Below, in pieces: positions 27,218 through 32,678 of a stretch of DNA of 60,258 nucleotides; the first letter of the stretch is position 1; every line of letters begins with the position of its first letter. The translations under genes were made by a program, and so were the position numbers. Source of the DNA: Bacteroidia bacterium (GTDB lineage Bacteria > Bacteroidota > Bacteroidia > AKYH767-A > OLB10); the NCBI GenBank assembly GCA_016788065.1, contig JAEUTI010000049.1, forward strand, positions 1 through 60,258, written 5' to 3'. The notes below the pieces were generated by a model. That model did not search any database. It had not been told where the DNA came from and saw only the letters and a list, made by a program, of their open reading frames with translations.

Positions 27218-27772
27218 TCAGAATTTGAATGCAGCACCCAGAGTCAGCCAAGATACACCATATCCAACTTCACCGAAAGCGGCAACTTCAGGTGTGAAGT
27301 AATATTTGGCTCCTGCAAATACGGAAGCATAAGCTGAACTTGAATAATTCGTGTTTACCAACACATTATTCGGAATATCATCGGAATAGTTAAGCACATA
27401 ATAGGCCAGCATAATTCCGGCATAAGTATCGAGCTCTTCTACTTCAAATACATCGTAGTGAAAGGTTCCGCGGGCACCAACCATGAAGTAGTTCCATTTT
27501 TGGCGGTACTTATCAATTTTATAAACGAATCCTTTGTAACCAACATAGCCACCCACACCAATGGTACCACCACCATCGAGATCCACAATACCATGGTCGA
27601 AATGCGCTCCGAAGGCAGGTGTTGTAGTTGAAAAGGAATTAAGTCCATAAGCACCTCCGAGTCCGAAGCCCACACCAATGTTACTGGTACCTTTCGAAAA
27701 GGTGCCATCCTGACCATATGATTGAAGGATGCCGGTGAAAAGGATAAAAGCAATAAGAACTAATTTTTTCAT
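27218..27772 (-). CDS. Small outer-membrane beta-barrel protein
   Basis: The start is placed at 27772, giving a signal peptide that ends QSYGQ near residue 21; the longer frame adds seven residues before it. The mature protein (about 160 residues) is rich in glycine and aromatic residues, with alternating strands such as GTIGVGGYVGYKGF and SAYASVFAGAKYYF, and ends in the aromatic strand YGVSWLTLGAAFKF, typical of a membrane-inserted barrel. No specific family is recognised. It converges on korB across a terminator. Confidence 0.75.
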   Translation of the reverse strand: MKKLVLIAFILFTGILQSYGQDGTFSKGTSNIGVGFGLGGAYGLNSFSTTTPAFGAHFDHGIVDLDGGGTIGVGGYVGYKGFVYKIDKYRQKWNYFMVGARGTFHYDVFEVEELDTYAGIMLAYYVLNYSDDIPNNVLVNTNYSSSAYASVFAGAKYYFTPEVAAFGEVGYGVSWLTLGAAFKF

Positions 27773-27932
27773 GTTTTTAAAAATGTGTTTCATAGTGCAA
27801 AATAAGTCTGTTCTGAGCCAATAAAGGAGAAAGATCAGATTCTTTTATCAACATTGCCCTGTTATTTAATTAAATGAAGGTGGGAATTGTGTTTAATAAC
27901 AGGTATGAATGTCATTTTAGGCATCAATTTTG

Positions 27933-27960: not shown

Positions 27961-28692
27961 ATGAAATATCAGATGCCTAAATCAGTATTAGTTTCATTAC
28001 TGCTAATTTTCAGTGTTTCGCTCACCAGTTTCCTGCCACAGCAGCAAATTGAGCGAATGAGTATGCAGGTTGTTTCCAAATCGTTGAAAAAAGGGCAATC
28101 GGTAACCACGGAAGCCATGGTGTATTATACATCAGAAGATGGTGGACACATGACCACCAAAACACTGAAACCTTTTTTGAGTTACATGATGATTAATTCA
28201 AAGGGTGAATTAAAAATTTACGATCCGAAAGCAAATACCATCCTGATTAAACCGAACAGTGGCATATCATCGCAATCGAGTTTTATGTATTTTATTTTAA
28301 ATGGTCATGCCGGCGATATGGGTTTAAAAGCAGCAGGCTTTAGCATCGGCGACACGCGTTTTGAAAATGGTATGGTGATAACAACCTGGCTGCCTCCTTC
28401 TGTACTGGTTGGCGCCATGGGCAAAGTAGAGTTGGTACACGAAAAATATCTCCCGGTTTATATGGCTTATTTTGATTCCAAAAATGAGCCTTTGCTGAAA
28501 GTATATTACAGTAATTATACGAAAGTAAAAGATGTCAGTTTTCCGTTATCTGTGACTGAATTCCGGTTTACATCACCGGTCGATTCCACCATTGAAAAGA
28601 AGGTTTACTCCAATATAAAAACCAATGAGGCGGTTGATGATACTCAGTTGAATTTTAAAATTCCTTCCAATGCGCAGAGTGTACAGCAGTAA
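27961..28692 (+). CDS. LolA-like outer-membrane lipoprotein carrier homolog
   Basis: I start the gene at 27961, where MKYQMPKSVLVSLLLIF begins a signal peptide; a TAAATTTG element lies just upstream. The 243-residue protein has the half-open beta-barrel pattern of LolA-type proteins: repeated strands with amphipathic spacing, KGELKIYDPKANTILIKP near residue 90, and a final LNFKIPSNAQ, a close relative of the LolA terminal motif. LolA carries lipoproteins through the periplasm, but many distant relatives bind other lipids. The last codons overlap the yidD-like gene by 23 bases, so the two are translated as a pair. Its cargo is unknown. Confidence 0.68.
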   Translation: MKYQMPKSVLVSLLLIFSVSLTSFLPQQQIERMSMQVVSKSLKKGQSVTTEAMVYYTSEDGGHMTTKTLKPFLSYMMINSKGELKIYDPKANTILIKPNSGISSQSSFMYFILNGHAGDMGLKAAGFSIGDTRFENGMVITTWLPPSVLVGAMGKVELVHEKYLPVYMAYFDSKNEPLLKVYYSNYTKVKDVSFPLSVTEFRFTSPVDSTIEKKVYSNIKTNEAVDDTQLNFKIPSNAQSVQQ

Positions 28693-29137
28693 ATTCATTG
28701 TTTTAATTGGAATACTCGGACTCTTTTTCATTTCTGAAACTGTGCATGCGCAATTGAGTTCAGGTGATCTGGGATTAATAGGAGCTCAAAAATTTGAAGA
28801 GGCACAATACAAAAAAAGGGAGATACACTTTCTTACTTCCAAGAGTAAAAGTCCGTTAGTAAAGTACAATCCTGTGACTTTATTTTTCGGATCCATGATG
28901 TATTTTTATCAGGCAGCATTAAGTCCGCAAATTTCTGCCGAATGCCGTTTCCAGTTGAGTTGTTCCAATTTCAGTAAGCAATCGATTTCCCGTTTCGGAT
29001 TATTAAAAGGAATTGCATTGTCGGCTGACAGAATTATGAAATGTAATCGTGTGGCCATGATTGATGCCCGTCCCGGAGATTACGATGTAAATTTCAGAAT
29101 GTTTGACACACCTTCCAAATATCATATTCATCGGTGA
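28670..29137 (+). CDS. Exported YidD-like protein
   Basis: Residues about 60-130 match YidD, the membrane protein insertion efficiency factor: FFGSMMYFYQAALSPQ, then the conserved cysteines Cys92 and Cys98 in CRFQLSCSNF, and Cys125 in IMKCNR. Unlike the usual YidD of about 80 residues, this one has an N-terminal signal peptide (ending VHAQ near residue 28), a charged linker and a C-terminal extension of about 25 residues. That places it outside the cytoplasm or anchored in the periplasm, so it cannot do the usual job next to YidC in the cytosol. It overlaps both neighbours. The function is unknown. Confidence 0.8.
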   Translation: MRRVYSSKFIVLIGILGLFFISETVHAQLSSGDLGLIGAQKFEEAQYKKREIHFLTSKSKSPLVKYNPVTLFFGSMMYFYQAALSPQISAECRFQLSCSNFSKQSISRFGLLKGIALSADRIMKCNRVAMIDARPGDYDVNFRMFDTPSKYHIHR

Positions 29138-30045
29138 GGTTGCTGCTGCTATATTTTTTATTTTTCCCCTTGTTGCTTTCTGCTCAGCAGGATTCCATAG
29201 CACCACTAACATCTGTTGATTCTATTGAAACTATTTTACCGGTAGATTCCATTCAACAGGAGTTGAATTTTATTGCTTACTTAAACAACAGAGGAGAAAA
29301 CCGGGATGCATTGCTTGCACTGAAGCGATTGACAATGACCGGAACAACTTTCAGTGCAGGTCGTACCGATACCATTAATTTTTTTACAGCGTGGAATTTA
29401 CACCAGATCAGGAACAGTGACAGTGCTATATTTTATTTTGATCGCATTTCGGCATCATCCGGATTTTATGATCCTTCATTTTTTTATGGTGTGTTGAACA
29501 GAATTTATTCCAAGCAGTATGAAGAATGCCGCAGCCGGTTAATGGCCTATCAAAACAAAGAATATCAATCGCTCACCAATTTAAATCTTGCAGCACTTGC
29601 TTTGCTTGAAAAAGATTTACCCGCATTCGATAGTTTGGCGAAATCGTTTGATTATAGTTTTTATGCTATCAGTGAAGAGCAAAAGAGTCTGAAGTTATAT
29701 GCCGATACCATTCGCAATTACCCGAAGCGTTCAGCAGTTGTTGCAGGAGTTCTTTCGGCAATAATTCCGGGAGCGGGGAAGGTATATTCAGGAAAGTTAG
29801 GTCAGGGACTGGCAGCATTTCTAGAAATAGCAGCTCTGGGAGGTGCCACAGCTGAGTATTATTTCCGGTCGGGGCCGGAAAGTGCCGGGTTTATCATATT
29901 CGGGACCTTATTCTCTTTATTCTATGTAGGAAATATATGGGGCAGTGCCCTTTCAGTTCATGTAAACAGAAATGATTTTTACCAACGCATCGACAACAAC
30001 ATCATGGTGGATTTGCATATTCCTTTGCGCCGGATTTTTCGTTAA
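29134..30045 (+). CDS. TPR-like protein with C-terminal PGxGxxYxG membrane domain, copy A
   Basis: The start is a GTG in the overlap GTGA with the yidD-like stop. Residues 1-17 are a signal peptide (ending LLLSAQQ). The middle (about residues 40-200) is helical with tetratricopeptide-like spacing. The C-terminal part has hydrophobic helices with the motif IIPGAGKVYSGKLGQGLAAF near residue 212, like those in DUF5683-type proteins. The next gene has the same architecture. A four-gene overlapping array with YidD and a LolA homolog points to one membrane-associated process. No function can be assigned from sequence. Confidence 0.7.
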   Translation: MRLLLLYFLFFPLLLSAQQDSIAPLTSVDSIETILPVDSIQQELNFIAYLNNRGENRDALLALKRLTMTGTTFSAGRTDTINFFTAWNLHQIRNSDSAIFYFDRISASSGFYDPSFFYGVLNRIYSKQYEECRSRLMAYQNKEYQSLTNLNLAALALLEKDLPAFDSLAKSFDYSFYAISEEQKSLKLYADTIRNYPKRSAVVAGVLSAIIPGAGKVYSGKLGQGLAAFLEIAALGGATAEYYFRSGPESAGFIIFGTLFSLFYVGNIWGSALSVHVNRNDFYQRIDNNIMVDLHIPLRRIFR

Positions 30046-30877
30046 TCCGGGACAAACGCGTGCACAGTTCAGCAGAAATGCCGATTCACTTTTTGCAAAA
30101 GGGGAGTGGCAGGATGCTGCATTGGAATATGAACGCCGGATATATTCAGGTGGTGATGCTGTAGATCGTACGTATGCTTTACTTGGGAAGGCGGAATGCT
30201 TAAAACAGACGGGTGATTATGTAGGTGCATTTAAAACTATTGCACGAGTTCCGTACAGCGAAATTAGTGATTCACTGATGGTAGCAGCACGTTTTCAGGC
30301 TGCATTGGTTTCATACCTGGACCGCGATTTTAATCAGGCACATTCGGAGTTGTTACAGATGTCCTTTTTTGCTAAGGATAGCTTGCTGTACAGAGAAACA
30401 CTTTTTCTGCATGTATTGGTTTTAAATGAAATGCGGAAATGGAATGAAGCAAAAACAATTGCTCAAAAAATGGTATTGTGGTCGGATGCTCCATCAGCGA
30501 TAAAAGATTCCTTATTACTTATTGTAAATACAACTTATAATGAATTGAATTATCCAAAGCTCAAGGATAAAAACAAAGCAATTAAATGGGCTACATTTTT
30601 ACCTGGAAGCGGCCATATTTATGCAGGCTATACCGGAGAAGGCATTATGAATTTAACGCTTCAGGCAGCATCTTTAGGATTCATAGGATATCATATTTAT
30701 ATCAGTCATTTTGTGAGTGCATTCACTATTGGTTCCGGTATGTTTCAGCATTTTTATTTTGGTGGGATAAATAGGGTGCAGTTTTTAGTAGATAAGAGGA
30801 ATTATATCAATAACCGGAAGTTTAATGATCCGGTGAAGGATATGGTTGTTGGGATACAGATGTTTTTATATAAATGA
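29972..30877 (+). CDS. TPR-like protein with C-terminal PGxGxxYxG membrane domain, copy B
   Basis: This 301-residue protein begins inside the end of copy A (74-base overlap); the first 31 residues look like a signal peptide ending TRAQ. TPR-type helices follow, with DSLFAKGEWQDAALEYERR near 39 and LGKAECLKQTGDYVGAFKT near 70. The C-terminal membrane part has TFLPGSGHIYAGYTGEGIMN near residue 208, the same motif as copy A. The large overlap with no nearer ATG supports this start but leaves it somewhat open. It is the last gene before the repeat island. Function unknown. Confidence 0.7.
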   Translation: MIFTNASTTTSWWICIFLCAGFFVNPGQTRAQFSRNADSLFAKGEWQDAALEYERRIYSGGDAVDRTYALLGKAECLKQTGDYVGAFKTIARVPYSEISDSLMVAARFQAALVSYLDRDFNQAHSELLQMSFFAKDSLLYRETLFLHVLVLNEMRKWNEAKTIAQKMVLWSDAPSAIKDSLLLIVNTTYNELNYPKLKDKNKAIKWATFLPGSGHIYAGYTGEGIMNLTLQAASLGFIGYHIYISHFVSAFTIGSGMFQHFYFGGINRVQFLVDKRNYINNRKFNDPVKDMVVGIQMFLYK

Positions 30878-30994
30878 GAGAAGATTGATAGATTGCTGCT
30901 CTCAAAATAATTTCCACAGCTGCCTCTGAATCAGTTTTTTGTTCTCATTCTGCTTCTGCTTCTCATTCTGTTTTGCATCTGCCATGCAGGCTTT

Positions 30995-31022
30995 GTTACT
31001 TTTTGCTTGACCAAAAAGTAAC
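30995..31022. repeat. Perfect 11-base-pair hairpin
   Basis: gttactttttg (30995-31005) pairs without mismatch with caaaaagtaac (31012-31022) around a six-base loop. A partial further copy of the right arm (ccaaaaagtc) follows at once. It is the left flank of the nested palindrome. Confidence 0.8.
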
Positions 31023-31033
31023 CAAAAAGTCAA

Positions 31034-31234
31034 GAACAGCATCAGGCACTGTCCTTCCGTGTCTTGTTGTTTTTAGTGAATTATGTTTTACCTTATTGAT
31101 ACTAAGCTGTTGGTGGTTTGCCGTGCGCTGCTTTTTACTAAGACAGTTTTTTTCTAAGAAAAAACTGTCTTGTAAAAAAAGGCGCGAGTCACGGCGCCAG
31201 ACGGCAAACCACCAACACGTGCTGGATGCTGTTC
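31034..31234. repeat. Nested palindromic element
   Basis: Three inverted-repeat layers share one centre. The outer arms are gaacagcatcaggcac (31034-31049) and gtgctggatgctgttc (31219-31234), 14 of 16 paired. The middle arms are tgttggtggtttgccgt (31108-31124) and acggcaaaccaccaaca (31201-31217), a perfect 17. The inner arms are aagacagtttttt (31140-31152) and aaaaaactgtctt (31159-31171), a perfect 13 with a six-base loop. It looks like a MITE/REP-type element or a long structured RNA. Confidence 0.8.
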
Positions 31235-31285
31235 GGTCATTTTAAATGACTGCTCAGAAAATATGCTTAGGGCGGACGGATTATG

Positions 31286-31325
31286 AATTAAGGATTAAGA
31301 ATTAAGGATTAAGGATTAAGGATTT
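31286..31325. repeat. Heptamer array 1, [GA]ATTAAG
   Basis: Five full copies and a partial copy of the seven-base unit aattaag or gattaag. The same unit recurs at 31559, 31783 and 49454. Confidence 0.9.
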
Positions 31326-31558
31326 GGATTCTAGCCGAATAGTAAGTCATTATTCAATTCTCACTTCTTGCTCCTCACTATTCAATAAAAGTATCATGAA
31401 GACAGGCAGAACTATAATTCAGCAGTAGAAATATTAAATTGTGTCCTATAGCAGTTTCAAAATATTGAATAACAAATATTGAATATTACAAATTGAATAA
31501 GGACATAGGGAGCAAAATATTATTCAATTCTCACTTCGTGATGGTCAATATTCAATAG

Positions 31559-31591
31559 GATTAAGGATTAAAGATCAAGGATTAAGGATTT
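31559..31591. repeat. Heptamer array 2
   Basis: Four copies of gattaag with small changes (gattaaa, gatcaag) and a partial copy, followed, as after array 1, by gattt and a sequence like agccnaatag. Confidence 0.85.
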
Positions 31592-31721
31592 TTGGTTACA
31601 GCCTAATAGTGTATCATTCTTCAATATTCAATTCATGCTAATCAAGGATCAATAGAAATATCTTGATAACTTCGAACCAAAAACTTTAGCATCTCCAGTT
31701 TTTCGCACCTCCTCACCCCGG

Positions 31722-31773
31722 CCCTCTCCAGCATAGGCATCCTCCTCCGTGGAGCATTTCGGGCTGGAGAGGG
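31722..31773. repeat. GC-rich palindromic repeat
   Basis: ccctctccagc (31722-31732) pairs perfectly with gctggagaggg (31763-31773) around a 30-base loop that has its own short pairing. Its GC content differs sharply from its surroundings and it resembles dispersed REP-type palindromes seen in many genomes. Confidence 0.75.
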
Positions 31774-31782
31774 AGAGACGCG

Positions 31783-31815
31783 GATTAAAAATTCAGGATT
31801 AAGAACTAAGGATTT
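31783..31815. repeat. Heptamer array 3
   Basis: Degenerate copies gattaaa, aattcag, gattaag, aactaag and a partial copy, beginning just after the GC-rich palindrome. Confidence 0.75.
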
Positions 31816-31972
31816 TTTGTTTGAAGCCAAATAGCTTATCACAATTCAATTTTCAATTCTTGTTAATCATTATTCAATAAAACCATCTTGAAGACGAGAA
31901 ACTACAAACTTTAGCAGCCCCAAAAGAGATCATAAGTGAAAAACGAAATCTTGAAATTTATTTCCCAAACTG

Positions 31973-32028
31973 TGATCGCTGAATACTGATCACTGAGTAC
32001 TGGTCACTCATAACTGATCACTGAAATA
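31973..32028. repeat. 14-base tandem repeat
   Basis: Four consecutive units resemble tgatcactgagtac (31973, 31987, 32001 and 32015), each differing at a few positions. Confidence 0.8.
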
Positions 32029-32135
32029 AGCAGTCATATCTTTTTACAGAGGAACAAAAAATTACCAAATCATCAAATTACCAAATCACCAAATCGATAG
32101 CAGTTACATCTTTTTACTCAGGAATAATAATTAGC

Positions 32136-32157
32136 ACCCTTCGGCTGAGCTCAGGGT
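32136..32157. repeat. Short palindrome with accct/agggt ends
   Basis: accct (32136-32140) pairs with agggt (32153-32157) around tcggctgagctc. The sequence is like a widely dispersed short repeat and its GC content stands out from the AT-rich flanks. Confidence 0.5.
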
Positions 32158-32190
32158 AGCGCATCAGCACATTACCACATCAATAAATTA

Positions 32191-32224
32191 AAAAAGGCCA
32201 TCTCGTTGGAGACAGCCTTTTTTA
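32191..32224 (-). terminator. Terminator downstream of the TM2 gene
   Basis: aaaaaggccatctc pairs with gagacagccttttt with two mismatches around a four-base loop, with A- and T-runs on the flanks. It lies 20 bases past the end of the minus-strand TM2 gene. Confidence 0.8.
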
Positions 32225-32243
32225 TTTGGTTCAGGGTAATTGA

Positions 32244-32678
32244 TTACCACATGAAGAATTTCGGATTATCGATGTACTTATCGATGTCATCATTGATGGT
32301 TCCGATAAGAAGCAGAATCCAGTCAACAAAAGATACGATACCAAGACCACCACAGGTAAGGATGTATCCAATTCCTGTCATGGTTTTAGTTCCCATGTAG
32401 AAACGGTGAATACCAAGTCCACCCAGAAAGAATGCCAAAATGAAGGCAACGATCGGGCTTTTCCCAGCCACCATAGCACTAGCGCTAGATGCAGCAGGAG
32501 CCGCAAATGACGCAAAAGACAAATCTGCAGCACCTGACATCAGGTTTGCAGTTACATCAGTCGACTGTTCAAACATCATATCGATCTTTGCGTCGTCGAG
32601 TTTGTAAGCCTGCGTATCAGCGTATGCGCATACACTGAAAATGCTCAGCAGGAAAGAGAACACGAGTAATTTTTTCAT
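32244..32678 (-). CDS. TM2 domain-containing protein
   Basis: I set the start at 32678 because MKKLLVFSFLLSIFSVCAYA is a signal peptide and a good promoter lies 31 bases further upstream. The 144-residue protein has an exported N-terminal part with no recognised domain. At the C-terminus there is a TM2 domain: two hydrophobic helices joined by GGLGIHRFYMGTK, then GIGYILTCGGLG and VSFVDWILLLIG. TM2 domains are found in many bacteria; their function is not settled. It stands alone with its own promoter and terminator. Confidence 0.88.
   Translation of the reverse strand: MKKLLVFSFLLSIFSVCAYADTQAYKLDDAKIDMMFEQSTDVTANLMSGAADLSFASFAAPAASSASAMVAGKSPIVAFILAFFLGGLGIHRFYMGTKTMTGIGYILTCGGLGIVSFVDWILLLIGTINDDIDKYIDNPKFFMW

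Follow-up and report, generated by a model that had tools for sequence, protein, structure and literature searches.

What would a YidD-like protein do outside the cytosol, and with which partners? YidD is a small protein, normally cytosolic and without a signal peptide, which is very widespread among bacteria and poorly understood, its biochemistry being poorly known. The question is raised by four overlapping genes on the forward strand of the window (the whole stretch of 60,258 nt analysed here), which encode a LolA-fold protein (27961..28692; 243 aa, the ORF being also open from its first start at 27874), an exported paralogue of YidD, here called xYidD (28670..29137; 155 aa), and two mutually homologous proteins, P3 (29134..30045, with a GTG start) and P4 (29972..30877). 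The successive overlaps of 23, 4 and 74 nt listed in an earlier, sequence-only reading are exact in the window ORFs, and chance or a coding artefact was ruled out for them, the arrangement recurring in more than 70 loci. The same reading had proposed a dedicated and undescribed envelope system, together with conditions that would refute it, none of which was fulfilled for the neighbourhood, the co-occurrence, the cysteine core or, by a crude rule, the signal peptide. The conserved neighbourhood, the co-occurrence of the genes and the separate canonical copies of YidD and LolA support this proposal, and the notion of a dedicated set stands with two amendments: a fifth gene, for a small exported hairpin protein, had been missed, and the LolA-like protein is optional. 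There is good support for the genes forming a conserved envelope module of Bacteroidota, with secreted paralogues of familiar components as its parts; what the module does is untested.

The window copy of xYidD begins with what both visual inspection and the crude rule mark as a classical signal peptide (N-terminus MRRVYSSKFIVLIGILGLFFISETVHA-Q), followed by a YidD core matching PF01809 of Pfam (E=4.6e-16; 58.8 bits, cut-off 27) and TIGR00278 of NCBIfam (E=4.6e-16; 58.4 bits, cut-off 40). The signal peptide had been claimed before; 115 of 132 xYidDs pass the crude rule, compared with 201 of 547 neighbouring genes that carry no label, and many of the latter must truly be exported. The cysteine core, likewise described earlier, was found at 28943..29044 (+), with Cys92 at 28943-28945, Cys98 at 28961-28963 and Cys125 at 29042-29044; all three positions hold cysteine in each of the 122 aligned xYidDs, and certain distant lineages have lost the third cysteine or more of them. 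Canonical YidD (PF01809, TIGR00278) and xYidD are alike in the core region and its three cysteines, whereas xYidD has a signal peptide, is longer, lacks the HGHDPVP-like C-terminal end and falls on a separate branch: in a tree of YidD cores, built on a short alignment (64 columns), one branch parts the exported from the canonical copies (support 99/96). The genome of the window keeps a canonical YidD of 73 aa elsewhere, directly behind an rnpA-like gene (L037), unlike xYidD, which lies outside the rnpA-yidD-yidC neighbourhood. In the class as a whole, a second, exported-type YidD was present in 68 of 295 genomes from about 30 families (hand count; E<=1.7e-20). A plasmid-borne origin was rejected, since YidD matched plasmids only in part and at low identity. 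A sequence search of the PDB turned up no YidD relative with a solved structure, and no exported form of YidD was found in the bacterial YidD literature (open-access, without preprints).

The first gene of the cassette had been called a LolA homolog, an identification that is sub-threshold in sequence (13.2 bits for the LolA model TIGR00547, cut-off 112) and clear in fold. Its AlphaFold model (pLDDT 94.3) matched LolA of P. aeruginosa (Foldseek E=2.7e-11) and shared the LolA fold with the Lol proteins of Bacteroidota (PDB 9tp6, 9tpm), with Z 16.3 to LolB and 15.8 to LolA3 of P. gingivalis. The protein has a signal peptide I, as LolA does. A lipobox pattern occurred in only 2 of 104 LolA-like proteins and not in the window copy, and because it is absent from the other 102 the protein looks soluble and periplasmic; a LolB identity was rejected for want of the lipobox, although the fold ties with P. 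gingivalis LolB. It further differs from the known Lol proteins in being fixed in an operon with xYidD, P3 and P4. A canonical LolA is encoded elsewhere in the window genome, and since canonical YidD is also kept separately, xYidD and the LolA-like protein are dedicated paralogues. Specialised LolA2/LolB2 in flexirubin loci, as well as a LolA3 of unknown role, have been described in Bacteroidota (PMC11885536, PMC13103446), which makes dedicated LolA paralogues plausible; the term YidD is absent from both papers, and the former calls for an alternative to LolA-LolB in Bacteroidota.

A scan of GTDB genomes with a P3 profile yielded 522 related stretches, and dozens of Bacteroidota families share the order LolA-xYidD-P3-P4. 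Among the carriers are the cultivable Flavobacterium sp. SUN052 (L120), Runella zeae DSM 19591 (L149) and Siphonobacter aquaeclarae (L116). Among the best 80 of the 522 P3 loci, P4 was found in 79, xYidD in 74 (as a single copy in 71 of them), the LolA-like gene in 68 and a hairpin protein in 67. Along the order LolA-xYidD-P3-P4, the junctions overlap or are no more than 10 nt apart in 59 of 62, 65 of 72 and 78 of 78 cases, respectively. All records of these 80 loci are from Bacteroidota except one, the title of which is apparently misassigned. The cassette of L114 (JADCRZ010000056.1) is typical of Bacteroidota, while its record bears the title Williamsia sp.; this MAG has probably received a wrong label or is a mixture. 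In 61 near relatives (inspected loci with sufficient contig), P3 stands directly behind a long exported YidD and is followed by P4, and the neighbourhood proved conserved, with its order kept in many genomes. Across 80 genomes chosen as a panel, co-occurrence was near-perfect: P3 accompanied xYidD in 54 of 57 genomes and was found in none of the 23 without it (Fisher P=4e-17; the Fisher P values are uncorrected for relatedness). Outside class Bacteroidia, the trio xYidD-P3-P4 is kept in five loci (one other family), and the LolA-like gene was not seen in most of eight loci. As this gene is also found in only 68 of the 80 best loci, it is optional, and the core of the module is xYidD-P3-P4. One locus outside the class (L172) combines LolA, P3 and P4 with a hairpin-like small gene, without a recognisable YidD.

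Proteins in which xYidD is fused to a P3-like protein were encountered in a genome of the window's own family (405 aa; G020, L035), in rumen Bacteroidales (L148, L167; here the cysteines have decayed) and outside the class (400 aa; L173). Such natural fusions, in at least three lineages, provide strong and independent evidence, drawn from sequences, for the prediction that P3-like proteins are working partners of xYidD.

The homology of P3 and P4 extends from end to end (277 columns; hhalign E=3.5e-23). They had been described as having one design (a signal peptide, TPR-like helices and a membrane part with a PGxGxxYxG motif), of which the homology, the TPR and the hairpin hold, whereas the window P4 fails the crude signal-peptide rule. 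The TPR matches are sub-threshold in the window proteins and significant in relatives and in the profiles (5.6e-9 for P3 and 3.8e-15 for P4 versus the TPR consensus); the model of P3 (pLDDT 93.2) includes a TPR in its fold. The C-terminal membrane hairpin of P3, placed at 29734..29961 (+) on the basis of alignment and model, reads SPxxAGxLSAxxPGxGKxYxG ... FYxGNIWGS. PF05154 (TM2) did not match the window P3 or P4, two relatives of each reached about 0.005, and the likeness of the P3 hairpin to the TM2 type is weak (hhalign E=6e-4, prob 30%); some P4 relatives match DUF5683 (1.4e-6). Compared with TM2 and DUF5683 proteins, P3 and P4 add TPR arrays and signal peptides. Nothing relevant on DUF5683 or on TM2 in Bacteroidota was found in the open-access literature (without preprints). 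The two genes overlap out of frame at 29972..30045 (+; 74 nt), and an overlap of at least 20 nt, in one constant relative frame, was kept in 130 of 131 pairs (its exact length depends on mechanically called P4 starts); the last part of P3 therefore shares its DNA with the signal-peptide region of P4. The stretch shared with the P4 signal peptide encodes the HIPLRxxF end of P3.

The fifth part is a gene on the reverse strand, 1.4 kb beyond P4 (32244..32678, with the start ATG at 32678), for a protein with a signal peptide, a YKLDDxxIDxxF segment and a TM2 domain (PF05154; E=4.7e-18, 65.6 bits, cut-off 27.9). The 1.4 kb between them (30880-32240) is without convincing genes and contains AT-rich near-repeats of the type GGATTAAGGATTAAGG. 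In the loci that have it, the hairpin gene most often either follows P4 immediately, in opposite orientation, or lies ahead of LolA. Its relatives have in common, after the signal peptide, the segment Y-x-[LIV]-[DN]-[DE]-x-x-[IV]-[ED]-x-x-F (the evidence is partly biased, because rows were picked using a pattern), and a second hairpin type (alignment A8), for which sequence-level matches to Pfam were scattered and unconvincing, has the same signal peptide and segment (hhalign E=1e-8). The window protein thus shares a bona fide TM2 domain with other TM2 proteins, and differs by a signal peptide and segment that are absent from most TM2 matches of the control genomes. Full-length matches to either hairpin profile occurred in 33 of the 54 cassette genomes of the panel and in none of the 26 others (P=2e-8, ignoring relatedness); two control genomes gave weaker, full-length-like matches (2e-17, 2e-14). 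Exactly one copy was present in 57 of the 80 best loci and up to 6 were counted per locus, against the mostly single xYidD; in several genomes hairpin genes were located on other contigs, some of which may still be neighbours in these draft assemblies. The exported TM2-type hairpin gene belongs to the set. In two loci in which no TM2-type gene was seen (L173:4654-5124, L175:7165-7653), the neighbour of xYidD is, judged by eye, a lipoprotein that combines a PEGA-like domain with a G-rich, hydrophobic segment.

What might these five parts do together? They probably help to build part of the cell envelope, although no experiment has addressed this, and a handling of lipoproteins or membrane proteins, as suggested before, remains an inference. 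The reading that we prefer, tentatively and with somewhat less than even confidence, is that xYidD, P3/P4 and the LolA-like protein chaperone exported hairpin proteins or insert them in the envelope. All five proteins would be exported by Sec (export itself being inferred). P3 and P4 would be seated in a membrane, expose their TPR arrays to the periplasm and serve as docking and receptor subunits, and the LolA-fold protein would shield hydrophobic segments during transit, the TPR and LolA folds being suited to docking and carrier roles. xYidD, bound to P3, might then help the small exported proteins to insert or assemble their hydrophobic hairpins, taking on the outside the part that is ascribed to YidD on the cytosolic side. 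Judged by copy number and by the segment that they share, these small hairpin proteins are the likeliest clients, their destination membrane being unspecified. A more specific version is possible, though we rather doubt it: the set would be a pathway, so far undescribed, by which alpha-helical hairpin proteins are inserted or assembled either in the outer membrane or at the outer face of the inner membrane, with a periplasmic YidD at its centre and the shared N-terminal segment as client address. The parts are known families and the system as a whole matches none found: open-access papers contained no named system corresponding to the whole set, and a known anti-phage defence system was rejected (no PADLOC model match at E<=0.1). 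A YidD that works outside the cytosol and has both fixed partners and candidate clients would offer a clean way to probe the function of the YidD fold. Envelope assembly in Bacteroidota, about whose pathways little is known, would gain a dedicated route through the module, possibly one for helical proteins.

The client status of the hairpin proteins is inferred, and they could equally be subunits. The main rival accordingly regards the five proteins as one stable envelope complex, which would transport lipid, pigment or lipoprotein or act as a scaffold for them, with the hairpins as subunits. It is consistent with the related-looking G-rich hairpins of P3, P4 and the TM2-type proteins, with the many loci that have a single hairpin gene (57/80) and with the lipid-carrying function of LolA-fold proteins, of which a LolA2/LolB2 pair is found in flexirubin loci (PMC11885536). 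The weak likeness between the P3/P4 hairpin and TM2 (E=6e-4) fits co-assembly as well as recognition, and the client reading is further weakened by the loci that miss LolA and by the 21 of 54 cassette genomes of the panel without a full-length match to the two hairpin profiles. Unlinked and tandem extra copies of the hairpin genes are, however, unlike a fixed subunit, and the cassette has no recurrent neighbours that obviously form a biosynthetic or transporter gene set; we consider a stable complex unlikely without discarding it.

Another explanation, which we regard as improbable, likens the module to PpiD-YfgM: it would assist the Sec/YidC translocon from the periplasm and serve a broad range of clients. 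A review connects YidD with YidC/SecYEG (PMC8082313), and the TPR of P3 resembles that of YfgM in the PpiD-YfgM complex (8zht_B, Z 13.7), both being periplasmic and of similar curvature. This similarity is generic, however, as hundreds of chains reach Z>8. The PDB rows cover mainly the TPR part. Compared with the YfgM-PpiD accessory of SecYEG, there is no PpiD-like domain, the membrane part is different and no sequence relation has been shown. Against this reading also stand the module's presence in only 68 of 295 genomes of the class and its tie to one protein family. For an envelope-stress or other sensing system, with the LolA-like protein as an RseB-like sensor, little speaks beyond the LolA fold of RseB/MucB (Z about 9): no anti-sigma factor is among the recurring neighbours and a sensor-kinase-like family, upstream in 13 loci, is not general, which leaves this very improbable. 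That the genes are neighbours by shared ancestry alone, without joint function, could appeal to the uncorrected Fisher tests and was already disfavoured, and it is scarcely credible in view of the same order in dozens of families and other classes, the xYidD-P3 fusions in at least three lineages and the P3-P4 frame kept in 130 of 131 pairs.

Two further families were observed near the cassette. In the window, a gene for an outer-membrane beta-barrel-like protein (27218-27793, reverse strand) points away from the cassette. A family of outer-membrane barrels, of which the window copy has not been shown to be a member, is near the cassette in 14 loci and directly upstream in 8. An exported-looking protein of about 300 aa, TPR-like by eye (e.g., L115:6608-7522), lies near the cassette in 28 loci, directly after it in 13, and is possibly a sixth part.
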